Source of the DNA: a virus
IMG/VR virus record: IMGVR_UViG_3300020172_006270
Location: 124,001-188,000 of that record
Reading direction: 5' to 3' (one strand)
Length of the DNA stretch: 64,000 bases
Below, piece by piece: positions 610 to 62,732 of this stretch; position 1 is the first letter of the stretch, and each line of letters opens with the position of its first letter. Both the position numbers and the translations under genes were made by a program. The notes under the pieces were generated by a model, which saw only the letters and a list, made by a program, of their open reading frames with translations, ran no database searches and was not told where the DNA came from.

Positions 610-3600
610 TAGGCTTCTCCCCTTATTGATTTTTCAAGATTAGCAACAGCCGAAGCATATTCGTGCGGTTGGTATTTGTCCTTGTTTGTATGGAAGTGAT
701 TGAGTAACTTCTTCTTCTGTTCTATCAAAGCTGGCGAGTGAGTTCCCAAATAATGTGGGTGGTGAGCAACACCAAGCCAATTCTTTTTAGCAAATAACTC
801 ACTGACGCTTTCTGTAGGCGCAGGCACTTGCTGTCCGGCTGGTGCCGTAGCCGGGGCTGGTGCTGGTGCTGCTGTAGCTGTAGCCGCTGCCGGTGTAGGA
901 GCAGGAGCTACCGGATTTGCTTCTGGCGCAGCGGTTTGTCCCAGCTTTCGTTTGGCAATAGTATCCCTCAAACGAGTGCCTTGAGCTTTTGTATCTACAT
1001 CTGCCGTTGGCTTTGTCGGAGGCGTAATTTCTCTAGCCGCTTGTGATGCCGCTGGTGCTGGCAAATTAAAGCGTCGATTGATTTCAGCCTGAACTCGATC
1101 CATTACATTGGTGTTGTCCTTACCGACAATTTTTTTGGATACAAGTTCTTGTATAAAGTTGCCATATTTTGCGCCCCGCTTTGCCAGCAAGTTGAATTTC
1201 ATTTCATCTTTTTCTTCAAAATCAGCTTCTTCCATATTGTCGAATGCCAATTGCAAGTAATGCAAAGCACTCTTTAACTCTTTGTCTGATTCTTGACCGT
1301 TATCAACGGGACGAATTTTTCCAGGATCGCCTGATCCAACTTCGATTGCTTGTTTTACCAAGGGGTGATTTTGGAACGCAGACATCAATTGTTCGGATGT
1401 TCTAAGTCCATCTTCATCAATCCAACCCTTAACTAACCTCTCTGCGGTTTCTTTGGCCTCTTCTTGCGACATTCCGGTGTTTCTATACAGAGTGCCAAGT
1501 GTGTTGCCTAAGAATAACTTGAAGTCAATTTGCGAGTTGATGCCATCACGAATCATTTTAATGATGTGAACACCAGTTTCATGATTGCTTAGTTCTTTTG
1601 CTGTATGAGTAAGTTCATCGGCCTTTGCTGCATCTTGTTGCATTTTCAGTATGGCGTCACGCATAACGGAAATGTTGTATGGAGTTTGCAACCCACTTGT
1701 GTCCCACGCCCGTTCGCCTTTGCCACGCTTTTTTTTGCCAATACCGCCGCCAGATTTAACTCGACTCATTAGATCGTCTTCAATGTTGGCATCTCCACCA
1801 TCACTAAAGCTGACTGTGTGAGCATCCTCTCCACCACCTAGCATTCTCATGCGACGACTGCCACCACCTTTGCCTTGGTCTTTTTGCATGAGGTTTGATA
1901 ATTTACCTTTCGCAAACTTCCTGCGACCCTCTGGCGTGAGTAGCTCAGGGTCGTCCATAGATTGAATCATTTTTGAATAGATGTATGAGTGCAATCCTTC
2001 AAGATCGTTCCTGGCAATTTTTCTTTCATGTGCCGTAGCGCCACCACAGGCAGTTCCCCATAGGCAATCTTTCATGCCATTGGCGATGTCTTCATAGAAA
2101 TTCCCCCGTGGATCAGGCGTGATTCTGCCATTTTGGTCCATGTGAACTTTTTGTTGACTATCGAATATTTTATCGTAAGTTTCTTGCCATTTAGGGTTTC
2201 CTCTAGTCATGTGCAAAACTTTCTCAGAGTCATGATTGACATCCAATCCTCCTGGAGCCTTGTGTTTTTGTTTTCCATAAACATCATCTGGAACATGAAC
2301 GAAAGATTTATCATGACCTCTTAATTGGTCTTCCGGTACTTTGTAGATCGGCTCTCCAGTTTCAGGATTGTATTTTTTTCTTGCATTCCCTTCGGCATCA
2401 TATTCATATTCATAGTCAGAATCTTCGCTACCCAATTCACGAAGATAATGCGCAGGATTAACGATAGGCATGTCCACAGGGACGGACTGCACTTTTCCAT
2501 CTATGACCTTTTGAATCATTTGCTTTTTAACTGGCAAATAAAGAGGAGGGTTTACAAACTTTGGGCCTTCTGATGTCATTCTGATCCCAATTGGAAATCC
2601 CTTGGGATTCACGCCTGGAATTGGCGGTCCTCTAAATTCTCCTTTTTCCACTCTATCAAAAAGTTCTGCATTTACTTGTTTGTTTGCTTCTTTGCGAAGA
2701 TCAGAATCTTTTCCTTTCCATGTTCTTCTTAATCCTGCTTCGATTTTCTTTCTTAGTTCGTTTCTGATATATTGAGCCGACCAAGTATCTTGCTTGCCTT
2801 TCATTTCTTTCCACTCAACATCTTTTGGTAGCTCTCCAAAAATGCGGTGGGAATTTGCACTTAAAAATTCGCCCATGTTGGTGCTTATTGACGCTTCCGC
2901 TGGAAACTTAAATCCCGAAGTTAGATGTGAACCAGAAACCTTGCGTTCGTCTCCATCATCATCGAAGACTGTTTTAATGTTCTTTTTGCCATCAATCGGG
3001 TCGGTCATATCAAAGCCGTATTTGCCTTGACCTTGCAGCCCCGACTCTGGATGGAACTCTTCTCCAGGCGTAGTTTCCAACTTATGGTAAAGCCGATTCA
3101 AAAATGGCTTTGCCATAAATGTTTGCTTTCTTGGAACGGCTGATGTGTCGCTAGAAGTAAGCGTAAATGGAACTGCTTCCTTTGGTTCGTCAACGTGTGC
3201 CGTTTGCTTTCTGATAAACTCGTGGGCCAGTTTTTCAGCATGTGCTTCTTTTTGATGTCGATTCATCATCTTAGAGCCGCTTTGCTTTAAGTGCGTAATT
3301 TCCCAAGCTGGCACGACCCCATCTAGGTGGCTCCACTCGCCTGTTTCCATAGCAGTGACAATTGCTTGTACTAATTCTTTTTGCTTGTATTCGCCGTGTC
3401 TCTTTTCATGCAAGCCCTGTACTGCCCGAAACAGCATTTCATATCGAGCTTTCTTTGCAGTTACCCAAAAATCATGCGGAAACTGTCGTAGGAATTCAAG
3501 ATCGTCATCGTCAAATTTAATTGGCATATCATTGCGAATGTGGTGTCGCACAGCCATTTCTGTAAAGAAATAGCCGGGTCTAAAGTATCGGGTTGCTTTT

Positions 3601-3656
3601 TCTTCCTGGAATTTATGTTCAAAAAACCCACGGAATGTTCTTGTGATTACAGCCAT
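609..3656 (-). CDS. Large unrecognised late protein (1015 aa)
   Basis: The ATG at 3656 follows AAAGGTAGGAC; an in-frame extension to 3749 would run through the divergent promoter and into the neck gene, so I reject it. The protein begins MAVITRTFRGFFEHKFQEE, loosely like the capsid-targeting N-termini found elsewhere in the window. The middle is rich in charged and Gly residues (GGGSRRMRMLGGGED; KSGGGIGKKKRGKGER). Near residues 560-610 is a helical stretch ARNDLEGLHSYIYSKM. An Ala/Pro linker (about residues 915-960) separates a C-terminal helical domain. No family is recognised. The size and coupling to a small helical protein suggest a virion or injected protein. Confidence 0.7.
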   Translation of the reverse strand: MAVITRTFRGFFEHKFQEEKATRYFRPGYFFTEMAVRHHIRNDMPIKFDDDDLEFLRQFPHDFWVTAKKARYEMLFRAVQGLHEKRHGEYKQKELVQAIVTAMETGEWSHLDGVVPAWEITHLKQSGSKMMNRHQKEAHAEKLAHEFIRKQTAHVDEPKEAVPFTLTSSDTSAVPRKQTFMAKPFLNRLYHKLETTPGEEFHPESGLQGQGKYGFDMTDPIDGKKNIKTVFDDDGDERKVSGSHLTSGFKFPAEASISTNMGEFLSANSHRIFGELPKDVEWKEMKGKQDTWSAQYIRNELRKKIEAGLRRTWKGKDSDLRKEANKQVNAELFDRVEKGEFRGPPIPGVNPKGFPIGIRMTSEGPKFVNPPLYLPVKKQMIQKVIDGKVQSVPVDMPIVNPAHYLRELGSEDSDYEYEYDAEGNARKKYNPETGEPIYKVPEDQLRGHDKSFVHVPDDVYGKQKHKAPGGLDVNHDSEKVLHMTRGNPKWQETYDKIFDSQQKVHMDQNGRITPDPRGNFYEDIANGMKDCLWGTACGGATAHERKIARNDLEGLHSYIYSKMIQSMDDPELLTPEGRRKFAKGKLSNLMQKDQGKGGGSRRMRMLGGGEDAHTVSFSDGGDANIEDDLMSRVKSGGGIGKKKRGKGERAWDTSGLQTPYNISVMRDAILKMQQDAAKADELTHTAKELSNHETGVHIIKMIRDGINSQIDFKLFLGNTLGTLYRNTGMSQEEAKETAERLVKGWIDEDGLRTSEQLMSAFQNHPLVKQAIEVGSGDPGKIRPVDNGQESDKELKSALHYLQLAFDNMEEADFEEKDEMKFNLLAKRGAKYGNFIQELVSKKIVGKDNTNVMDRVQAEINRRFNLPAPAASQAAREITPPTKPTADVDTKAQGTRLRDTIAKRKLGQTAAPEANPVAPAPTPAAATATAAPAPAPATAPAGQQVPAPTESVSELFAKKNWLGVAHHPHYLGTHSPALIEQKKKLLNHFHTNKDKYQPHEYASAVANLEKSIRGEA

Positions 3657-3691
3657 AGTCCTACCTTTACGAGTTTCACTCATGCTCCTGA

Positions 3692-3697
3692 TATATA
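3692..3697. promoter_or_regulatory. Bidirectional late-type TATATA box
   Basis: A palindromic TATATA between two divergent genes. On the plus strand it ends 7 nt before the ATG of the neck gene, which has no Shine-Dalgarno. On the minus strand it lies 36 nt before the 1015-aa gene. The arrangement resembles other divergent pairs in the window (21402, 30491, 57747). Confidence 0.45.
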
Positions 3698-3704
3698 GAT
3701 TACC

Positions 3705-4577
3705 ATGATGAATAATATGCTTTTTATCCCACGACCGACCAAGGACCAATTCTCACAACTTTCCTGTGGACAGGGTTGCGGAGATTTAGGCCCTACTGAT
3801 CCCTTAGATAAGATAGGCCCACGCAGAAATCGAGAAAAAGTGCGTGGTCAAATCAAAGAATACGTCCTAACAATGCTTGGCGCTCCAGTATTGCCGCTTG
3901 AATTGGACGATCAGCAGATCGAAAACTGTATTGATTTTGCTCTGCAAATTTTTGAAGACTATGCCCCAATGGAATACTTTCAGTATCACACCTTCTACAC
4001 GGTGCCAGGGCAAAGCGTCTATCAAATGCCACCAGATGTTGGCTTCATTAGACAAATTTCCTACAAAGAAACAGCAAATTATGCCTTCTCAGCCTCCGAT
4101 CTCGGTGGCGTAATCCCTCTGGATTACATGGGCGGCGGTGCCTATGGCTCCATTGCTGGTGGCATCAATCCTCAACAACCAGTCTGGGGGAAGATGTCAG
4201 ATTGGGTTTTGTATAAGCAATACGAGGATATGTACAATAGAATCTCCGGGCAACAAGGTGGTTGGGAATTCCTCGGTGGCTACAATCACATTAAGCTATA
4301 CCCAATTCCATATCGCAGCTATCCCGTAGCAGTTCGGTATCTTCAGAGACGACCAGACTTCCGTATGGTTACTCAAGCTATGCAGGAAGGGGCCTTGGCA
4401 TTCGCCAAGATTGTATTGGGTCGTATTCGTAGTCGTATTGCTAATCCTCCTGGTCCTGGTGGCGGCGTTCAGTTGGATGGGCAGGCAATTCTTGCCGAAG
4501 GTCTTCAAGAGAAGAAAGATTGGGAAGAACGACTTCTAACTAGATTTGGCGACCTTCTTGGCCCAAGAATGATGTAA
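3705..4577 (+). CDS. gp13-like neck (head-completion) protein
   Basis: 290 aa. Residues about 45-85 carry the pattern typical of T4 gp13-type neck proteins: VRGQIKEYVLTMLGAPVLPL followed by an acidic helix with DDQQIENCIDFALQIFEDY. In this family the protein sits at the portal/neck and helps join the packaged head to the tail. A Gly-rich middle (GGVIPLDYMGGGAYGSIAGG) is followed by a beta/helical C-terminus. The start (MMNNML) is just downstream of a TATATA box, without a clear ribosome site. The assignment is by motif recognition only. Confidence 0.65.
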   Translation: MMNNMLFIPRPTKDQFSQLSCGQGCGDLGPTDPLDKIGPRRNREKVRGQIKEYVLTMLGAPVLPLELDDQQIENCIDFALQIFEDYAPMEYFQYHTFYTVPGQSVYQMPPDVGFIRQISYKETANYAFSASDLGGVIPLDYMGGGAYGSIAGGINPQQPVWGKMSDWVLYKQYEDMYNRISGQQGGWEFLGGYNHIKLYPIPYRSYPVAVRYLQRRPDFRMVTQAMQEGALAFAKIVLGRIRSRIANPPGPGGGVQLDGQAILAEGLQEKKDWEERLLTRFGDLLGPRMM

Positions 4578-5909: not shown

Positions 5910-6200
5910 ATGCTTGCCAAGCTCGTATGTGAAATCGTTCAGTCCCAGCCAGATGGCCTCAAGCACGCTGAAGTGGTCAAGGCCGTATTGCGTAGCGGAT
6001 ATAGACACCAAGGCAACCAGCCTATCTCTGTGGCTGTCTACGAGACTCTGAAAGGTCTTGTGGTCAGTGGCGCAATCAGCCGTATTCAAGATGATCTCAT
6101 GGAGCGGCGATATAAAACAATCGGGGCAACCACCGATTGTCACGATGATTGCCCCGATGAGAAAATTGGTAATCGAATGCTTACAGAATTGTATGCGTAG
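5910..6200 (+). CDS. Small winged-helix DNA-binding protein
   Basis: 96 aa. The ATG at 5910 is 8 nt after AGAGGAG; an upstream in-frame ATG at 5862 has no ribosome site. Residues 1-65 fit a winged helix: helix LVCEIVQSQPDG, recognition region HAEVVKAVLRSG, then YETLKGLVVSGAISRI. It has its own early-type promoter, so it may regulate early transcription. Its last 20 nt overlap the convergent NAMPT gene. Confidence 0.7.
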   Translation: MLAKLVCEIVQSQPDGLKHAEVVKAVLRSGYRHQGNQPISVAVYETLKGLVVSGAISRIQDDLMERRYKTIGATTDCHDDCPDEKIGNRMLTELYA

Positions 6201-7602
6201 TCGCTTCTCGGATTTGAGTAAGCGTCTGATCCACCAGAAGTTCGCCGTTTCTGAAAACGAACTGCAACTGGTCTGGACGAGGATCGGCCTCACTCACAGT
6301 TTGCAATACCTTTCCATGAGCGCCCGCCTCTGACCACACCAGCTTCAGCCGTCCAGCTTTGGACTTCTTACCGCCGTCTGTGACAGGCTGCTTGTAAACG
6401 TCTCGGACTTCATCGCCCACGACCGCCGAAGAACACTTGAAGGCGAACCGTTGCGTATCCCGGTTGAGTTTCTGGAGCAATCCACCACCTGAGCCGAAAG
6501 CGATGTTGTCAGCCGACCAACCGGCCTTTTCCATAGCCGAGAGGATCAGATCGAGCATCTTGAAGTCGATGCCGTCTCCCTGAATAACTCGAACCTTTGG
6601 ATGCAGGACTTTATATCCCTTTGAGTTGACCGTGACGCCAAACTTCTCGCCGAGAATATCCAACACCTTGACCACAACGGTCGGAGGATCGCCGGAGTCC
6701 GGGCGAACAACCAGCACGCCATCACGGGCTAGAACTTCGTCCTTGAGGACGCCGCCCCAAATGTTGGCACAGCAGTTGAAAATGTCGTAGCTGTCGCTCA
6801 CCGTTGCCACGAGTCCGTCTGGATATTGCACCAGCATGTTGCGGCAAGCATCGACTTCGTGTTCACGACCCCACGAAGTAATCGTGCTGTGTTCAGCGGC
6901 AGGAATCGAGAAGCCAGCACATTCTTGATCGTACTGTCCGTAGAACTCATCGTGTAGAACCAATCCAGGGGCAGTATCGGTTCCTCTGAAATTCAGAAGG
7001 TGTGCTGCGCCGCCGATTGCTGCTTGTTCGGGACAAGTGACTCCACGGAATCCGAAGTCATGCAACTTGAAGTCAACCAGTGAAGTGTCGCCGGTTTGTG
7101 CAAGGTACTTGAGGATGACCTTTTTCATCGCCCGGCTTTGCGTGGCGACCGTCGAAGGATACCACACCTGAACCAGTAGCGTTTCCAGGTAGTTGGTCAA
7201 CCAAGCTACCTTGTCGTCGGTGTTCTCCACCGTCATCAGGACGTTGGATTCCCCAACTACGGTTCCTTCGGGAGCCGCCTTGATTTCAACGGGAAGCCGA
7301 CCGCCGTGGGCGTTCAGGATATATTCCCAACCTTCACGGTTGAAGACCTTGCCGCCGAAGTGTCGGTTGAATAATCGTTCCGCTCGGTCAATTTTCTCGG
7401 CGGTAACGACCTGCCCAACCAGATATTGCTTCAGCCAATATTGGAGGCCGAAAAAGGTCGTGGCGGGGTGAACTGACCCGGAACGGGACTCAAAATACGA
7501 ATAGATACGCCGTGTTCCAGGTGGATATTGCTTCCAATGGCTGATTTTGTACGAGTCAGAAAGCCAACAGATGTTGTTGAGCCAATGCCAATTCAGGTTC
7601 AT
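6181..7602 (-). CDS. nadV: Nicotinamide phosphoribosyltransferase (NAMPT/NadV)
   Basis: 473 aa, full length for the family. It makes nicotinamide mononucleotide from nicotinamide and PRPP, the rate-limiting step of NAD salvage. Visible family features: N-terminal DSYKISHWKQYPPGT, the VDFKLHDFGFRGVT motif that holds the nicotinamide stack, the IQGDGIDF phosphate-binding segment and GSGGGLLQKLNRDT. It has its own promoter at 7643-7671. NadV genes are known in several large phages, where they sustain NAD and can counter NAD-depleting defences. A nucleoside hydrolase (55882) and a Nudix enzyme (5183) in this window may feed the same pool. Confidence 0.95.
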   Translation of the reverse strand: MNLNWHWLNNICWLSDSYKISHWKQYPPGTRRIYSYFESRSGSVHPATTFFGLQYWLKQYLVGQVVTAEKIDRAERLFNRHFGGKVFNREGWEYILNAHGGRLPVEIKAAPEGTVVGESNVLMTVENTDDKVAWLTNYLETLLVQVWYPSTVATQSRAMKKVILKYLAQTGDTSLVDFKLHDFGFRGVTCPEQAAIGGAAHLLNFRGTDTAPGLVLHDEFYGQYDQECAGFSIPAAEHSTITSWGREHEVDACRNMLVQYPDGLVATVSDSYDIFNCCANIWGGVLKDEVLARDGVLVVRPDSGDPPTVVVKVLDILGEKFGVTVNSKGYKVLHPKVRVIQGDGIDFKMLDLILSAMEKAGWSADNIAFGSGGGLLQKLNRDTQRFAFKCSSAVVGDEVRDVYKQPVTDGGKKSKAGRLKLVWSEAGAHGKVLQTVSEADPRPDQLQFVFRNGELLVDQTLTQIREATTHTIL

Positions 7603-21441: not shown

Positions 21442-22449
21442 ATGCTATCGTACAAACAGTGGAAGACGCTGAATGAGTCTGTATTACCGAGCTTCAATCT
21501 TGGTATTGCCAACCCATCAAACCTGGGCATTCAAGCTCCATCCGGCTTCGGCATGGACCTAGAAGAAGCCAAAAAGATGTCCAAGAAGAAAGCCAAAAAG
21601 AAAATGTTTGGCGATGATGAGGAAGATGAAACCGGCGACGGTGAGATGGTTGAACCATCTTCTGAAAAAGACGATCCAGATGTGGACGTTGATGTGGATT
21701 CTGATGATGACGGCGATGAAAAGCCTAAGTTCAGCAAGAAGTGCGGCAATATGTGCGGCGCTCAATCCAAGAAGAAGTCCAAGGCCAAGTGTGGTGCCGA
21801 TATGGACGATGATGATATGGACGATGAAGAAGGTGCCGATATTGACGCCGAGGGCGACGATGAAGGCGATGACGAGGGCAAGAAAGACTTGAACTCGGTT
21901 CTCTTCTCGAAGAAGAAGTCCAAGAAGAAAATGATGAAGTCCAAGAAGAAAATGTGGTCTGACAATGACGACAGCGACGGCGACGATGAAGACGCTGAAG
22001 ACATGGGCGACGAAGACATGAGCGACGAAGACATGAGCGACGAAAACATGAGCGACGAAGACATGGAAGACGCCGAAGAAGAGGCCGGTGTAGACTTGGA
22101 CGGCGATGACGAAGAAGGCGAGCCAGAAGAACACAAGAAAAAGGTTCTAGGTGGCAAAGGCGGCGATGTCGGCGGCGGCATGGGTGATGCAGGCCCAATG
22201 TTCTCCAAGAAGTCATCTAAGAAGAAAATGCAAAAAGAAGCCACTGACGAAGAGAAGTGGTGGAATAGCGTTCAAAGCATGACCGGCAGTTCTCCTGATA
22301 CGAAGTACAACGATGGTTGGACTGAATATCAAAGCACTGGTGGCGGCGAAAATCTATTCACTCCAGTTGATACCGAGAACTTAACTCAGGCTGTTCGTCC
22401 TGAGCCGGGTCAGCCAGGATTTGCTCCTTCCGGTCGCATTGGCAGCTAA
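21442..22449 (+). CDS. Alternating acidic/basic low-complexity protein with capsid-targeting-like start
   Basis: 335 aa. Begins MLSYKQWKTLNES, with the module and an LNE cut site; GAGGAATAATT precedes it. Beyond residue 40, long Asp/Glu blocks (including tandem MSDED repeats, about residues 192-208) alternate with FSKK/SKKKSKKK basic blocks at about residues 97, 154 and 255. It also contains Cys-rich bits (KKCGNMCGAQSKKKSKAKCG). The last 80 residues are a Gly/Pro-rich non-repetitive tail. A disordered polyampholyte packed in the head is inferred. Confidence 0.75.
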   Translation: MLSYKQWKTLNESVLPSFNLGIANPSNLGIQAPSGFGMDLEEAKKMSKKKAKKKMFGDDEEDETGDGEMVEPSSEKDDPDVDVDVDSDDDGDEKPKFSKKCGNMCGAQSKKKSKAKCGADMDDDDMDDEEGADIDAEGDDEGDDEGKKDLNSVLFSKKKSKKKMMKSKKKMWSDNDDSDGDDEDAEDMGDEDMSDEDMSDENMSDEDMEDAEEEAGVDLDGDDEEGEPEEHKKKVLGGKGGDVGGGMGDAGPMFSKKSSKKKMQKEATDEEKWWNSVQSMTGSSPDTKYNDGWTEYQSTGGGENLFTPVDTENLTQAVRPEPGQPGFAPSGRIGS

Positions 22450-22472: not shown

Positions 22473-22496
22473 AGCCACGATATTTATATCGTGGCT
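22473..22496. terminator. Rho-independent terminator
   Basis: 10-bp stem AGCCACGATA / TATCGTGGCT with a 4-nt loop, then T7 on the plus strand. The convergent minus-strand epimerase ends inside the stem (22484). Confidence 0.85.
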
Positions 22497-23395
22497 TTTT
22501 TTGTTTCTTCAACGAACTTCTTGATCCCGCTGGCTGGCTCGTATTCTGGCGAATAGCCTAAGCACGTTTTTGAATGGTGTAAATCCAATAACGTATGAGC
22601 TTGATAGGCATCCAAAAAGGGGCAGTTGATATATTCGGGTTCCAAATCCGTACCCAACTCTAAATTCAGCGTGCTTACAACATCATTGAAGCTCATGGCT
22701 TTTCCTGATCCCACGTTGAATACATTGGAGTGCCTGTATTGGCTTGCCAATAAGTTTGCATTTACAACATCTTCGATGTACACCCAATCTCTTAAATGCT
22801 CTCCAAATTTGAATATTTTTGGCCTTTCCCCTCGCAGCATTTTTTGCAATAATTGGCTTATCATACTCGACCGTTTTCCCTTGTGACTTTCTCCTGGGCC
22901 GTAAACATTGGAATATCTAAGTCCAACAAGATTGACGCCGTATTCTAAGGCGAAACTTTCCGCAAATTGCTCAAACAACATTTTGGAGTGAGCATATGGG
23001 TTCAACGGGTCTAATCGTGTCTTCTTCTCGCAATATGGAACAGACTCGTTGCCATATACAGAACAACTTGACGCATATACGAACTGCTTGCAGCTTTTTT
23101 CTCTCGCCAAGCGATAGAATAGATTTGAAGGAGCGGTCAGATTCGACCGGAGCATATTCTCCATGTCCATATCTGTCGTGTCGTTATTTGCCGCTTGATG
23201 AAAACAAACATCAATCTTGGGGATCAAATCCCAGGATATTCCGTCCAAGTTTATTTGGAGGAACTTATGGCACAAAGGATTGTTTTCACTTTTGCTTCCA
23301 ACAGCAATTACGTTCCAATTGTTGTTGTAAAGCCTGTTGCAAATGTGATGGCCCACAAAACCTGTGGCTCCAGTGACTAGGGCTGTTTTCGACAT
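22484..23395 (-). CDS. HldD-like NAD-dependent sugar epimerase
   Basis: 303 aa SDR-type epimerase. Rossmann motif GATGFVGHH (residues 8-16), Ser/Thr-Tyr-Lys site SSCSVYG and YAHSK. Segments DTTDMDMENMLRSNLTAPSN, VGLRYSNVYGPGESHKG and FGEHLRDWVYIEDV are especially like ADP-L-glycero-D-manno-heptose 6-epimerase (HldD/RfaD). A UDP-sugar epimerase remains possible. It would supply a heptose or related sugar for glycosyltransferases. Confidence 0.8.
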   Translation of the reverse strand: MSKTALVTGATGFVGHHICNRLYNNNWNVIAVGSKSENNPLCHKFLQINLDGISWDLIPKIDVCFHQAANNDTTDMDMENMLRSNLTAPSNLFYRLAREKSCKQFVYASSCSVYGNESVPYCEKKTRLDPLNPYAHSKMLFEQFAESFALEYGVNLVGLRYSNVYGPGESHKGKRSSMISQLLQKMLRGERPKIFKFGEHLRDWVYIEDVVNANLLASQYRHSNVFNVGSGKAMSFNDVVSTLNLELGTDLEPEYINCPFLDAYQAHTLLDLHHSKTCLGYSPEYEPASGIKKFVEETKKATI

Positions 23396-23600: not shown

Positions 23601-24314
23601 ATGGCAACAAAGGCACAATGGTTTGAACTCTACGTTCAAGCAGGGTTACAACCAATTGCGGTCTACTTGGGAAAGAAAGCCCCGGTGGGGCTGAACTGGA
23701 ACAGCAATTGGAATGCTGAAAAATGGCGTCCGTATTTTGACAATGACAATGCCTATGACATGGGCATTTTACTTGGCGATATTGTTGACGTAGAAGGCGA
23801 TACAGAAGAAGCCAATGATCTTCTGAATCAAATGACGGAGTATGTTCCTCATCCTAAATTTCGTAGCTCTAAGTCAACGCATCATCTTTTTAGGAATCCT
23901 GATCCATACCTTACCCGCAAGGTTTTTAACGGGATGGAGTTTCGAGCGCACAAACACCAATCGGTTGTGCCGCCTTCTACACATGAGTTCGGTTCTAAAT
24001 ATGGATGGCTTGTTGGCTCCACGCTGGTCATACCAGATATGCCAGATGAGCTATTGCGATATTATCAATCGCATACTTCTAAGCAAAAAGAAAAGACATG
24101 CAGCCAAGCCAAAGATGGCTTCACACAGATGTTGTGTAGGGCTTGCAAGAATGAATTCTTTATCCATGAAAAGAGGTTATTCTTGGAAGTAAAAGCCTTC
24201 CAAGAATACAAGTTGCCGTGGATGTGTCACAAATGCCGAGAGTTTGATTTACGGCAAAGATGTCGAGTTATTCGGAAGTCTCTTCAGAAGAATAGTTTGT
24301 TTTTTCAGGCATAG
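23601..24314 (+). CDS. Stand-alone primase-polymerase (prim-pol, AEP-like) domain
   Basis: 237 aa. Follows the N-terminal prim-pol domain of phage/plasmid replication proteins: KKAPVGLNWNSNW, MGILLGDIVDVEGDT with the DVE acids, STHHLFRN, then MEFRAHKHQSVVPPSTHEFG. A C-terminal zinc-binding region (CRACKNEF ... CHKC, residues about 178-215) follows. These enzymes lay primers or copy short DNA. No helicase domain is attached, so it must work with a separate one. The last 47 nt overlap the convergent hydrolase gene. Confidence 0.75.
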   Translation: MATKAQWFELYVQAGLQPIAVYLGKKAPVGLNWNSNWNAEKWRPYFDNDNAYDMGILLGDIVDVEGDTEEANDLLNQMTEYVPHPKFRSSKSTHHLFRNPDPYLTRKVFNGMEFRAHKHQSVVPPSTHEFGSKYGWLVGSTLVIPDMPDELLRYYQSHTSKQKEKTCSQAKDGFTQMLCRACKNEFFIHEKRLFLEVKAFQEYKLPWMCHKCREFDLRQRCRVIRKSLQKNSLFFQA

Positions 24315-24930
24315 GCAGATCATATTGTTCTCTAATCCAGAAGCCAGCGTCTTCGACATCTTCTGGGGCAATAAAATGACCGCCGACTTCACCCTCGATT
24401 ACTTCCAAATCGTAGCCTCGGTCAAGCAAGGCATTCTTCATAGGCAAATATCGTTCTTCCCATGAAAAGCAATCGTCGTTTTCATTGTGAATAACAAGAT
24501 ATTTAGTCGGGTGTCGAGACTTAGGTAATTCGTCTGGCTCCAATATCGCCCCGTTATGGGCAATTACGGCGTTGAATGGATTATCTGTAAAAGCGGCAAG
24601 CTGAATGGCCATCACCGCTCCAGCAGAAAATCCACCCAATATTACATTGGACCGATCCACTTCAAACTCCTCTTCGAGTTCTGCAATGAATTCGTCCATC
24701 TGAGGGACTGATAGCTTTAGGCCCCAAACCGCTTCCATTTGATCTCCTGCCCCCTTGGGCGCAGGATACCACTCATCCATTGGTTCAATGGCTACCAATG
24801 TGAATTGATCCAATGTTGAAAAGCGATGATACCGGGCCAGGATGTCCTTTGCAGGCTGTCCTCGACCCGGTAGCAACACGACCAGACCGAGGCAATCCCC
24901 TTCTGGTTCACGCACGATGACTTCATACAT
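24268..24930 (-). CDS. Alpha/beta hydrolase (carboxylesterase/phospholipase type)
   Basis: 220 aa. GGFSAGAVMA (residues about 123-132) holds the nucleophile elbow GxSxG. NENDDCFSW supplies the Asp region and GGHFIAPED the catalytic His. No signal peptide, so it acts in the cytoplasm. Its ATG overlaps the TAA of the amidoligase (TAATG), so it may cleave what the ligase makes, or act on the same substrate. Confidence 0.8.
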   Translation of the reverse strand: MYEVIVREPEGDCLGLVVLLPGRGQPAKDILARYHRFSTLDQFTLVAIEPMDEWYPAPKGAGDQMEAVWGLKLSVPQMDEFIAELEEEFEVDRSNVILGGFSAGAVMAIQLAAFTDNPFNAVIAHNGAILEPDELPKSRHPTKYLVIHNENDDCFSWEERYLPMKNALLDRGYDLEVIEGEVGGHFIAPEDVEDAGFWIREQYDLPMPEKTNYSSEETSE

Positions 24931-25871
24931 TATTCAATATTCCATGCAACATAAGGGTCAGGAAGGGCTTTGCCAGAAAGCCGGTCAATCGCCTGAAGCA
25001 AGCGAGTTGGAAGATAGTTGCTCACGAACATCATGAACTTGTCAGCTTCTTTTCGATTGCAGGTATCAATTGCCTTGCGAAGCATATTGGCGTCGTAGCC
25101 AAAACAAGAATATGCAACACTAGGGTCTTCTTCGTCCAATAGGTCTTCATTCACGGTCCAGAATCGTTCGTGAACTTTCTGATTCACGAAGCTCAGAACG
25201 AATGAGGTCAGATCATACATCAAGGCCACATGCTCAGGAGAAGACAACCAGAAGTTGCCCAAAGCACGATATTCCAGACCATAATCTGGCGTGCGATGCG
25301 AGCCTGCATGACCATAGATTCTTCTTCTGTCCTTGGATGTCTCATCAGTATCCATGAAGATAGACGGAATTCCCAGGAACAAGTCCATCATGCGAATGAC
25401 ACTGAAGGCTTCCATAGGGTCTTGAAGCCGTTCGCTGCCAATGTGAATGTGACCACCCGCCGACCGGAACGGCGTTTTGAATTGATAGTAGCCATCCAGA
25501 AGGTCTACGTCATCATCGGGCGGGAACACCTGCTGAAGACTGTACACGTTCCATTCTGGATTGCATCCAGCAATCTTGGCATCCGGGCAATTCAATTCTT
25601 TCTTAGGGTAATTGCCAGACGCCCTAATGATGAACTTGGCAGGTTGAATGATCTGAGCCAGTCCATGTAATGCAGATCGCACATTGCATAGTGCTTCGTC
25701 TTTGTTCTTGGCTGGTTTTACTGCGATCTCGGCTAAGACGTTATCGAAGTAGTACCCATGCCCGTGCTTAACGACAGCATCTTCTTTTTTGGGAAGAACA
25801 CTGATTGCGCTCTTGAGTTCATCATGATGGGTCAACATGAACTCAGGGTCGGTTCCAAATGAAAAAGTCAT
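24930..25871 (-). CDS. phiEco32-like amidoligase (COOH-NH2 ligase type 2)
   Basis: 313 aa. GTDPEFML at residues 6-13, a histidine-rich GGHIHIG near 138, and the run RRIYGHAGSHRTPDYGLEYR at about 180-200 match the glutamine-synthetase-like amidoligases first described in phage phiEco32. They form an amide between a carboxylate and an amine with ATP. Substrate unknown; peptide tagging or cell-wall/small-molecule modification have been proposed for the family. Middle gene of a three-gene operon. Confidence 0.85.
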   Translation of the reverse strand: MTFSFGTDPEFMLTHHDELKSAISVLPKKEDAVVKHGHGYYFDNVLAEIAVKPAKNKDEALCNVRSALHGLAQIIQPAKFIIRASGNYPKKELNCPDAKIAGCNPEWNVYSLQQVFPPDDDVDLLDGYYQFKTPFRSAGGHIHIGSERLQDPMEAFSVIRMMDLFLGIPSIFMDTDETSKDRRRIYGHAGSHRTPDYGLEYRALGNFWLSSPEHVALMYDLTSFVLSFVNQKVHERFWTVNEDLLDEEDPSVAYSCFGYDANMLRKAIDTCNRKEADKFMMFVSNYLPTRLLQAIDRLSGKALPDPYVAWNIE

Positions 25872-25880
25872 AGCGAATCC

Positions 25881-26657
25881 TCACTTTTGATAGTGCCAGT
25901 ACGGAACGAGAACGGGTTGGCCAATGGCCTTGTACATCATGTCAGTAGCAAACCCGATAATACCCAGCCTATTGTGGATCGAGTCGATCTGCATATTGCT
26001 AGGGTAGTTCAACTGAATATCTCTGTAGAAGATTCGCCGGTCGCCGACCCGCAAAATCTTTTGAAGGGCGACATCTGAGCTTTTGAGCCAGTATCCATCC
26101 TTCTTCTGGTAAGGCTTGATCTCACCAGACTTGACTCCTTCGATTGTTTTCATGAAGGAATCACCTACTGTGTGGCAGAACCCTACACGCAATAATAGGG
26201 TGTAGAGTGAGAGCATCGGCGGCGACTGAATCCATCTTTTGCTTCCCTCGAACATAAACACACCAGCTTTTTGGTATGCTTCGGGTGGATAGCCGCATTG
26301 CCGAGCAAATGATTTTTTGATCTTGAGGCGTTCTTCGATTTGATTGATGAAATCAAGAACAGCCGGGATTTTCTCTGCGAACTTCTTGTCTTTTGAGTTT
26401 GTGAGCAGCAATCTAACCCGATCAAGGCAAGGAGCCGGATCGAGAGCAGGGTTGTATTTGAATTTGTATATTTCAAACCACTTATTGTGGAGGGTTCCGT
26501 ACATAACGTCATGCAAGAAATCCTTGCACCAGACAAACGGATGGCACTGCTCATAGTCGGAAGAAACCAAGGCATACTCCAAACCCTTGGAGTATATCTG
26601 TAGAATCTTTGAGTTTAACGGCACTGGTTTCCAGTCGATGTAGCGATTATAACCCAT
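25881..26657 (-). CDS. Amidoligase-operon protein, unknown (258 aa)
   Basis: ATG at 26657, 6-7 nt after GGAGG. Mostly alpha-helical, with Trp/Tyr/Cys-rich patches (YNRYIDWKPVP; EQCHPFVWCKDFLHD). No recognised domain. First gene of the operon, 9 nt before the amidoligase, so it is likely the substrate, carrier or partner of the ligase. Confidence 0.7.
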   Translation of the reverse strand: MGYNRYIDWKPVPLNSKILQIYSKGLEYALVSSDYEQCHPFVWCKDFLHDVMYGTLHNKWFEIYKFKYNPALDPAPCLDRVRLLLTNSKDKKFAEKIPAVLDFINQIEERLKIKKSFARQCGYPPEAYQKAGVFMFEGSKRWIQSPPMLSLYTLLLRVGFCHTVGDSFMKTIEGVKSGEIKPYQKKDGYWLKSSDVALQKILRVGDRRIFYRDIQLNYPSNMQIDSIHNRLGIIGFATDMMYKAIGQPVLVPYWHYQK

Positions 26658-26676
26658 GAGCAACCTCCAGCCTTAA

Positions 26677-26705
26677 ATGTTATCGTTGTATATTCGGTGG
26701 GTCAA
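26677..26705 (-). promoter_or_regulatory. Sigma-70-like promoter of the amidoligase operon
   Basis: Minus strand: TTGACC (26700-26705), 17-nt spacer, TAACAT (26677-26682), about 20 nt before the start at 26657. Confidence 0.65.
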
Positions 26706-28508: not shown

Positions 28509-29099
28509 ATGGACTGTCCGTATTCCAAACAACCTTGTGATGATAAGAAGGTTCTGCATGTTACAGAACTGAAGGATGGCAGTTATGTTGAGTCGCATAT
28601 GTGCGATAAATGTGCAGCAAAATATACTGGCGGTCCAGTCGAACCAGAGGTTAAGCCCGAACCAGAAAAACCATCTAGTTTGGGTGGATTACTTGGCTTA
28701 TTGTCTTTGTTGATGCTTGGGACCGTTGCTTCTCAGAAGCGAGCAACAGTTAAAGCTGCATCACAAACAACAAAATGTCCTGGTTGTGGAACAACTCCAG
28801 AAGACATTTCTAAGACCGGCAAGTTCGGTTGTGCCAAGTGCTATGAATACTATCAAGCATCTGTTGAACACATTCTTCAGAAGTGTCAGAATGGTGCAAC
28901 TAAACACGTTGGCAAAGTGCCTAAGAAATTTCCCGAAGAACAAGAAAAACGCCGCCTCCAAGAAGAAGCGGCGCTCAGTGTTCAGGATCAAATCAAAAAC
29001 CTTGAAGATAAAATGGCCAAGGCCGTCAAGGTTGAAAACTATGAAGTTGCTGGAGTCTTGAAATTAAAGATTCAAGAACTTCGAGAACAACTAATGTGA
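28509..29099 (+). CDS. McsA-like protein (zinc fingers plus UVR-like helix pair)
   Basis: 196 aa. The centre and C-terminus follow McsA: CPGCGTTPEDISKTGKFGCA then KCYEYYQ (C90, C93, C108, C111) and HVGKVPK, then a helical UVR-type pair (LEDKMAKAVKVENYEVAGVL). The N-terminus has another CxxC set (C3/C10, C32/C35) and a hydrophobic stretch (residues 58-73) that could touch a membrane. In bacteria McsA activates the arginine kinase McsB and tags proteins for ClpCP. A phage copy could redirect that system. Confidence 0.8.
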   Translation: MDCPYSKQPCDDKKVLHVTELKDGSYVESHMCDKCAAKYTGGPVEPEVKPEPEKPSSLGGLLGLLSLLMLGTVASQKRATVKAASQTTKCPGCGTTPEDISKTGKFGCAKCYEYYQASVEHILQKCQNGATKHVGKVPKKFPEEQEKRRLQEEAALSVQDQIKNLEDKMAKAVKVENYEVAGVLKLKIQELREQLM

Positions 29100-30047
29100 T
29101 TTGACCCACTCTTCCATTTTGCGTGGATCAATAATCCCGAATCCCTCAAAGAACTTTTGACCAGCGAATTCGGGATTTTTCGTTGGTGTCGTATAGGACT
29201 TCATCAAGTTGATGTAGTCTGTATTGTCTTTTAGTTGGATGTTCAAGCCTTTGTTTCGCTTATAGGAAAGCAGCAATGCTGCCACACCTACAGCAAACGG
29301 ATTTGCCATACTTGTCCCTGAGAGAACAGCATACCAGTTATCTGGAACTGTACTCAGGATTCGCACACCTGGGGCAACGAAGTCCAAGTCTGGACCAGTG
29401 CAGCTAAATGAAGCACGGTCAAAATTCTCATCAATAGCACCAATGCCAATTACTTCAGGGTAAGCAGCCGGATAGAATATTTGACGTGTCTTGCCAGCAT
29501 TACCGGCAGCACACCATGTTATCGCTCCCTTAGAAGCTGCATAGCGAATGGCATCTTGAATCATCGGCATTTGAGCCGGTGCGCCAAGAGACATCGTAAT
29601 GAAGTCGGCACCCTGGTCTGCGGCCCAACGAATACCATTGGCGACGTTAGGTAGGTTTCCAGCGCCTTTGTTGTCCAATACCTTAACAGGAATGACCTTT
29701 GCCTTCGGAGCCACGCCCACAACACCAACATCGTTGTTGATGGCACAAATAATGCCTGTAACGTGTGAACCGTGGCCGTTATCGTCTTCTGGTGGTGAAT
29801 TAGGATCAACGAAGTTTCTGCCAGGAAGAAGATTTCCTACGAGGTCGTCGTGATCTAAATCTGCACCTGTGTCGAGTACAGCGATAACTACCCCTTCGCC
29901 TTTGGTGAATTCCCAGGCTTCAGGCAGATTAAATGCTGTAATTTCCCAGCCTACTTTTTGTTGGACATCTTGAATAGTCAAGAGGTCTTCTCGGTCGTAG
30001 GGTAAAAGATTGCATACGGGATTACGCAACTTGATCCGTTGTGCCAT
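29091..30047 (-). CDS. Subtilisin-like serine protease (intracellular type)
   Basis: 318 aa, no signal peptide. Catalytic D59 (AVLDTGAD), H92 (GHGSHVTG) and S246 (SGTSMANP), with N183 in AAGNAG. The N-terminal NLLPY resembles the LIPY inhibitory prosegment of intracellular subtilisins. Likely degrades host or phage proteins inside the cell. It overlaps the membrane-protein gene upstream by 26 nt and the McsA-like gene (convergent) by 9. Confidence 0.92.
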   Translation of the reverse strand: MAQRIKLRNPVCNLLPYDREDLLTIQDVQQKVGWEITAFNLPEAWEFTKGEGVVIAVLDTGADLDHDDLVGNLLPGRNFVDPNSPPEDDNGHGSHVTGIICAINNDVGVVGVAPKAKVIPVKVLDNKGAGNLPNVANGIRWAADQGADFITMSLGAPAQMPMIQDAIRYAASKGAITWCAAGNAGKTRQIFYPAAYPEVIGIGAIDENFDRASFSCTGPDLDFVAPGVRILSTVPDNWYAVLSGTSMANPFAVGVAALLLSYKRNKGLNIQLKDNTDYINLMKSYTTPTKNPEFAGQKFFEGFGIIDPRKMEEWVKSH

Positions 30048-61295: not shown

Positions 61296-62732
61296 TTAGA
61301 TGACGAAGTTAGCGATGCTCATACGAGCATAGAACTTGGCACCTTCACGCAGCAATTTCTTGCCGTAGCGTGTCAGAATACCCTTGCGTGGGCAGAAGGA
61401 TTCTGGGTCGAGGACCACAGGTGTCTGTGTCAGTGGAACGTATGGGCAGTAGAAGTAACCACTGTCCATGTAGCTGTCGCCCTTGTAACCCATCAAAATC
61501 TGGTTGGATGGGAAGAGAGGGTCTTTGTACAGTCTCCAACGGTTGTTAACAGTACCAACATACTGGATGCCCAGGCTGCTAGTGAATGTTTCGCTTGGGG
61601 CTGGAGCAAAACCTGCGGTTGCTGTCTCGAAGATCGAGGCAACTTCAGGGCTGGTTACGAGCCAGTTAGCTCCACCACGAAGCGTCTTACGGTGGATGAC
61701 GTTAGAAACTTCAACAACCTTGACATACAACGACTCATACTTTTCCTTGATGGTTTCACCAAGAGCAGTATTGAAGTCCCAAGCGGTTACTGTACCGCTG
61801 TTGTTGCGAAGGTCGGTTAGAACTTCACGGTCGATTTCGAGGTTGATTTCCTGGGCCAATACAGCGGTCAGTTCGGCTTCTGCGTCCAGGTTGTGCTGGC
61901 TGCGGAGGTCTTGCTGTGCTTCATAGGACCATACAGCCTTCAACTTACGGGTCTTGGCGGCAATTTCTTCCGACTCGATCACGAGGTTGATTTCTGGGAG
62001 GTCTTGCTGGCACTCCATGTTGTACTCATAGCTGATGACAGCGTGGTTAGCGCCAGGAGCCGAGTTCCATGTGAGGGCGAGTTCGCCAGTGTTGTTGTTC
62101 AAGCTACCTGCTGTAACCTTAACGCTAGGAGCGCCAATGTCAGTGAAGGTGAAGCTACCACCGGACGAAACGATGAATGTCTGGACAGCAGTGCTGCCAT
62201 CATAAATCGTACCAGTTACAGTACCGGCCAAAACTGGTGTGTGTTCCAAAGGAGTGAACACAGCAGCGGTGTCAGTACCAGCGTCAGTCGAGGTCGTCTC
62301 GTTCTGAATGAACTGGTGGGTGTAGAAGATGTCCAGGTTGGCAGTACCGTCAGCGGTCTGCATCAACGAGTTGGCGTCATCACCAGGGAAACCACCGTTG
62401 TTAGAAGCGCCACGGGTTGCACCCTTGTTGCTGCTATAACGGAAGCGTAGGTAATACACCAGACCTGTTGGGCCTAGCAATGGCTGAACGCTAACAATCT
62501 TGTTGGCGATCAACTGTGGGTAAATACGACGGACAAGCGGAATCGAGATTCGCTTGAACTGAGCGATGTCGCCAGTGTCGGTTGAGACTTCATTCATGAG
62601 TCTCTGGTTTTCGAGTAGAACTGCTGTGGCAGAGCGAACGTAACGGTCCTGAATACCTTCGAGGAGTCCGGTCTTGCCCCAACGAGATTCTAGCTCCTTA
62701 GCCTCATTCAAAAATCGAGAATTTGCGTTCAT
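61296..62732 (-). CDS. Major capsid protein (T4 gp23-like)
   Basis: 478 aa, GAGGATAAC before the ATG. Helical N-terminus (MNANSRFLNEAKELESRWGK ... LLENQRLMNE) is the likely prohead-protease-removed part, with LMNE as a candidate cut. RRIYPQLIANKIVSVQPLLG and LVYYLRFRYSS are typical gp23 segments; SYMDSGYFYCPYVPLTQTPV and ILTRYGKKL lie at the C-terminus. Follows scaffold and protease genes as in T4. Confidence 0.92.
   Translation of the reverse strand: MNANSRFLNEAKELESRWGKTGLLEGIQDRYVRSATAVLLENQRLMNEVSTDTGDIAQFKRISIPLVRRIYPQLIANKIVSVQPLLGPTGLVYYLRFRYSSNKGATRGASNNGGFPGDDANSLMQTADGTANLDIFYTHQFIQNETTSTDAGTDTAAVFTPLEHTPVLAGTVTGTIYDGSTAVQTFIVSSGGSFTFTDIGAPSVKVTAGSLNNNTGELALTWNSAPGANHAVISYEYNMECQQDLPEINLVIESEEIAAKTRKLKAVWSYEAQQDLRSQHNLDAEAELTAVLAQEINLEIDREVLTDLRNNSGTVTAWDFNTALGETIKEKYESLYVKVVEVSNVIHRKTLRGGANWLVTSPEVASIFETATAGFAPAPSETFTSSLGIQYVGTVNNRWRLYKDPLFPSNQILMGYKGDSYMDSGYFYCPYVPLTQTPVVLDPESFCPRKGILTRYGKKLLREGAKFYARMSIANFVI

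Follow-up and report, generated by a model that had tools for sequence, protein, structure and literature searches.

A compact three-gene unit joining an amidoligase, a serine hydrolase and a protein of an undescribed family in a jumbo phage

The window analyzed here is a stretch of 64,000 nucleotides, positions 124001 to 188000 of a 223,268-bp virus sequence (IMG/VR record IMGVR_UViG_3300020172_006270). The virus is a tailed phage, because a major head protein is encoded in the window (phrog_138, 1e-84), and a jumbo phage judged by its size. Three genes lie together on its minus strand, termed UNK, LIG and HYD (Table 1). A preliminary description, made from the sequence alone, had presented them as a tightly coupled unit, and this arrangement was confirmed, with 9 nt separating UNK from LIG and a 1-nt overlap of LIG and HYD in TAATG. 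The start of UNK is better set at the ATG at 26657, and the equivalent codon is used in the close relative L001, which has no upstream TTG. The order of the three genes was the same in L001 and in another close relative, L003, and purifying selection acts on all three, since dN/dS relative to L049 was 0.04 for UNK, 0.06 for LIG and 0.09 for HYD. The promoter candidate upstream of UNK had been described as early-type; it proved to be an ordinary sigma-70-like site by count (5 such sites found in the region versus 6.2 expected, which is not above chance), and nothing supports early timing, while the site itself is retained in L048 and almost retained in L049. On the other side of the unit, a gene for a protein with a Prim-Pol N-terminal domain (PF09250, 3.4e-13) converges with HYD, overlapping it by 47 nt at the 3' ends, and this convergent arrangement is retained in relatives.

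Table 1. Position and description of the three genes, the promoter candidate and other genes of the window
Feature	Position	Strand	Description
UNK	25881..26657	-	258 aa, undescribed family, first gene in the unit
LIG	24930..25871	-	313 aa, phiEco32-like COOH-NH2 ligase (PF14395), GS-type carboxylate-amine ligase
HYD	24268..24930	-	220 aa, Abhydrolase_2-type serine hydrolase
Sigma-70-like promoter candidate	26677..26705	-	TTGACC-17-TAACAT, upstream of UNK; 9/12 match
Prim-Pol N-terminal domain protein	23601..24314	+	convergent with HYD
Acidic/lysine-rich protein	21442..22449	+	335 aa, low complexity
Nucleotide-sugar epimerase	22484..23395	-	like ADP-heptose 6-epimerase
McsA homologue	28509..29099	+	protein-arginine kinase activator/Clp adaptor
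Subtilisin-like protease	29091..30047	-	Peptidase_S8
Nicotinamide phosphoribosyltransferase	6181..7602	-	
Major head protein	61296..62732	-	

LIG extends a known ligase family by one new member. In agreement with its earlier designation as a phiEco32-like amidoligase, it matched PF14395 (4.3e-16, 59.3 bits against a Pfam curated cut-off of 25) and phrog_3815 (1.2e-41), and it carries the GS-type metal/ATP/substrate motifs GxDPE, DNxxxE, GGHxHxG and ExR. Across an alignment of 40 LIG sequences, the residues G6, D8, E10, D43, N44, E48, G139, G140, H141, H143, E200, Y201 and R202 were invariant, as were R182 and R193, and P9 and G145 (the last G of GGHxHxG) were nearly invariant; we take the motif residues to be the counterparts of GS H269/H271 and E357/R359. 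The AF2 model of LIG (pLDDT 95.5) was closest in VIA structural comparison to Dop and YbdK (Z 15.2 for both), followed by PafA (14.5), GshA-type ligases (13-14) and GS (about 13), and LIG is accordingly modeled with the GS/GCS catalytic fold. The ATP-site residues were thus present in both the alignment and a confident GS-fold model. The modeled fold by itself is compatible with a protein as the substrate and also with a small molecule. Profile comparison by hhalign gave no signal between LIG and Amidoligase_2 or the other cluster families, a comparison for which the method is powerless.

The second enzyme, HYD, had been called an alpha/beta hydrolase and can now be placed as an Abhydrolase_2 serine hydrolase, with matches to PF02230 (6.4e-11, 42.9 bits, cut-off 23) and to an esterase of known structure (PDB 5dwd, E 1.7e-13). 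In 25 aligned HYD sequences, 31-83% identical to the window copy, the Ser-Asp-His triad of S102 (in GFSAG), D152 and H185 was invariant, and two clade-specific motifs, EWYPxPNGxxDQ and DDxCFxWxERYxPM, were located around residues 53-64 and 152-163, respectively. HYD therefore resembles the Abhydrolase_2 carboxylesterases and acyl-protein thioesterases in profile and triad, but differs from them in forming a clade of its own that was found only beside LIG in viral contigs. Because its closest named relatives are esterases or carboxylesterases, HYD may cut an ester instead of an amide. No HYD homologue was detected among 50,697 phage records.

UNK had no sequence match in Pfam or PHROGs (each searched with 35 homologues), in the PDB (searched with their profile) or in NCBIfam (searched with the window copy). 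The preliminary description of UNK as a helical protein holds for its C-terminal half, while the AF2 model (pLDDT 95.9) shows a beta-alpha N-terminal half and hence an alpha/beta protein overall. Residues C44, D46, E108, W142, S150, Y218, H228 and G232 are near-invariant across the family and suggest a site for binding or catalysis. In structural comparison with VIA-align, the top eight rows were all GS (Z 4.8-5.5 over 135-150 residues, the next match scoring 4.4), values below the tool's meaningful level that hint at most at a ligase-fold protein in decayed form; ExR and HxH, two GS-type motifs invariant in LIG, are unconserved in UNK. Profile comparison of UNK with the cluster families by hhalign returned nothing, and the same method also fails for LIG versus Amidoligase_2. 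The second Foldseek match of UNK in BFVD was a 290-aa protein of Cronobacter phage GAP52 (E 0.16, prob 0.33), which, going by length, may be gp028 (290 aa), encoded two genes upstream of the GAP52 ligase. A kinship of UNK with two hypothetical proteins upstream of phiEco32-like ligases was rejected, as iterative profiles left the families unconnected. A search of 84,980 bacterial and archaeal genomes with one short pattern revealed no UNK, and profile checks of the LIG loci placed UNK in two metagenome bins (L212 and L220). Our literature search found no description of the UNK family, nor of a unit composed of a ligase and a serine hydrolase.

To survey the gene neighborhoods, a scan was run with the LIG profile, which yielded 80 loci, 40 of jumbo-phage type, with a neighborhood like that in the window, and 40 of classical type; these and the following counts include near-duplicate contigs and overlapping seeded scans and are not independent. 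Among the jumbo-type loci, 30 of the 40 keep the complete unit in the order UNK-LIG-HYD, 2 have UNK and LIG, 2 have LIG and HYD, and 6 have LIG alone, so that UNK and HYD are both present in 30, both missing in 6 and represented by one only in 4, and tend to be retained or lost jointly. The classical-type loci hold LIG with some or all of GATase-II, Amidoligase_2, ATP-grasp and GGCT; UNK occurs in 8 of these 40 and HYD in none. When the scans were seeded with the partners, LIG adjoined HYD in all 37 loci of viral contigs and accompanied UNK in 37 of 40, the other 3 UNK loci lying beside the ATP-grasp and GATase-II genes of the classical cluster. UNK homologues within the classical clusters of other phages and bins were found in L085, L088-L090, L095, L099, L105, L123, L196, L204, L212, L220 and GenBank MW202615; in L095, L099, L123, L212 and L220 UNK directly follows the ATP-grasp gene, and in MW202615 it follows GATase-II. 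The diversity of jumbo-type LIG (36-97% identical to the window copy) together with this second genomic context is a stronger argument than the counts. Co-location of UNK, LIG and HYD in related jumbo-phage contigs is thereby established, and UNK counts as a new element of phage amidoligase systems, because it also sits in the classical clusters of unrelated phages. In L071, a gene for a papain-family peptidase lies immediately upstream of UNK (3340-4143, plus strand; PF00112, 1.2e-10), and L082 and L084 also have a member of this family.

Conserved proximity may also have other causes. The flanking families F1, F3, F4, F9 and F10 are conserved around the unit as well, and with such strong wider synteny in the clade the adjacency of HYD, taken alone, could be inherited gene order, HYD then being an esterase without a link to the module and carried along in a stretch conserved among jumbo phages. 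We regard this as the least probable of the readings considered here, as HYD was never found away from LIG in the viral contigs, even where the flanks have changed (L071, L077, L082, L084 and L162), and the association of UNK reaches unrelated phages with a different neighborhood. Another proposal is that UNK is a carrier or substrate, modified by LIG and restored by HYD. In its favor, UNK heads the unit directly before LIG and, at short range, is better conserved than either LIG or HYD, yet the proposal is very improbable, because UNK is fully folded in its model, in contrast to Pup-type tags, and its C-terminal tails vary within the family both in length and in sequence, leaving no conserved terminus; moreover, LIG lacks UNK in the six solitary loci and is accompanied by HYD alone in two more. 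The suggestion in the preliminary description that UNK may be the carrier is consequently disfavored, its invariant residues resembling a binding or active site.

Phage amidoligase clusters have long been predicted to modify proteins or make peptides, and our literature search found no reported substrate for them. Surveys treat linked amidoligases and ATP-grasp ligases generally, and phage R2K ATP-grasp ligases have been suggested to modify host proteins (PMC4431377; PMC7824862), while phage genome papers list the classical cluster genes without function (PMC3890496). We compared the unit with the phiEco32-type cluster (PF14395, Amidoligase_2 PF12224, GATase-II, RimK-like ATP-grasp and GGCT) of Bruynoghevirus, Grimontviridae and Zobellviridae phages. 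The two share the PF14395 ligase family, UNK homologues in some of the clusters, and a homologous class-II GATase, which the genome of the window encodes at another locus; they differ in that only UNK, LIG and HYD stand together in the window, and in that the cluster has Peptidase C26/phrog_4877 whereas the unit has a serine hydrolase. The 223-kb source record (G000), which is perhaps incomplete, gave no match to Amidoligase_2 (PF12224), phage ATP-grasp (phrog_2599) or GGCT (PF06094), whereas each of these was matched in four control phages. Its class-II GATase (395 aa, 66.9 bits against the F7 profile of the classical cluster) lies at about 96.7 kb of the record (L040:8721-9908, plus strand), 52 kb from the ligase, and 10 of the 13 jumbo records examined (G000 and 9 of 12 relatives) have one copy, far from the ligase. 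The module may thus still use a glutamine-derived amine, supplied from this separate locus. The GATase gene lies downstream of ribonucleotide-reductase-like and CTP-synthase-like genes, both named by eye.

In other phages, Peptidase C26 (family F18) occupies slots beside LIG and GGCT is found in the cluster, so the pairing of a PF14395 ligase with amide-cleaving enzymes is recurrent across phages. No locus held both HYD and the C26 family, but the two also belong to different phage groups, and HYD is at most a candidate replacement for C26. GGCT, GATase-II and Peptidase C26 are also typical of gamma-glutamyl chemistry, which is consistent with a small-molecule pathway and no tagging of proteins; LIG would form a gamma-glutamyl-type amide or a short peptide, UNK would be a further enzyme on the same route, and HYD would trim or release the product. 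In the same direction, LIG resembles YbdK and GshA in fold just as closely as it does Dop and PafA (Z 13-15), and the near-invariant C44, D46, W142 and H228 of UNK could form an active site. We consider this pathway rather unlikely, though it deserves serious attention; the operon has no known biosynthetic partner, and GGCT, Amidoligase_2 and phage ATP-grasp were not found in the genome. Pupylation by PafA and Dop offers another parallel, as both have the GS-superfamily fold, rank with YbdK as the best structural matches of LIG (Z 14.5-15.2), and combine ligation with removal, the logic proposed here for the unit. The resemblance lies in fold only, with no sequence match of LIG to PafA or Dop, and the proposed remover is an alpha/beta hydrolase, whereas that of pupylation is a GS-fold depupylase.

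Coupling of the three genes, deep conservation, intact catalytic residues in LIG and HYD, and association of UNK with amidoligases in two genomic contexts were all observed. We tentatively favor the explanation that the unit is a compact, pared-down amidoligase module, probably for reversible amide conjugation, with UNK as the partner of LIG. In such a module, LIG would activate a carboxylate at the expense of ATP and couple it with an amine, in the manner of GS, YbdK, GshA and PafA; UNK would be its dedicated partner and would probably either bind the ligase or present the acceptor; and HYD would cleave the conjugate or a product related to it, so that the modification could be reversed or edited. 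The removal step is assigned to HYD because HYD strictly accompanies LIG and because classical clusters hold Peptidase C26 and GGCT. We infer a single pathway for the three proteins, with the product of LIG as the target of HYD and with UNK as a partner and not an independent enzyme or substrate. Arguing against a module, the six loci with neither UNK nor HYD indicate that LIG can work or persist alone. The earlier idea of making and removing an amide tag on a protein, peptide or wall component remains reasonable, apart from the cell-wall target, which is unsupported. A more specific version, which we consider improbable, holds that UNK is a degenerate GS-fold protein forming a ligase-pseudoligase pair with LIG, and that it selects the protein, of phage or host, that receives a reversible amide tag, neither ubiquitin nor Pup, which HYD removes.

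An ATP-driven bond maker, a bond cutter and an undescribed protein in one unit suggest a reversible chemical modification during infection. With only three genes, this version is small and has few components for expression and testing, and UNK, a new and confidently modeled family that marks amidoligase systems in two unrelated phage contexts, offers a starting point for finding the target of the ligase.

Several other genes of the window were also identified. A divergent operon near the unit encodes an McsA homologue (NCBIfam NF053706, 3.5e-25, below the equivalog cut-off; PDB 8wtb, 3e-17), a family present in 38 of 81 LIG loci; no McsB-type guanido kinase was matched in 13 jumbo records, and the control genomes gave no match either. 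The adjacent subtilisin-like protease (Peptidase_S8, 1.2e-52; phrog_3677, 1.5e-77) is conserved near the unit in 35 loci, and the nucleotide-sugar epimerase (TIGR02197, 9.7e-63, below cut-off) is likewise conserved in the neighborhood. The very acidic, lysine-rich protein, without a family match in NCBIfam, is conserved in 29 loci, and the nicotinamide phosphoribosyltransferase near the start of the window matched phrog_448 (2e-161).
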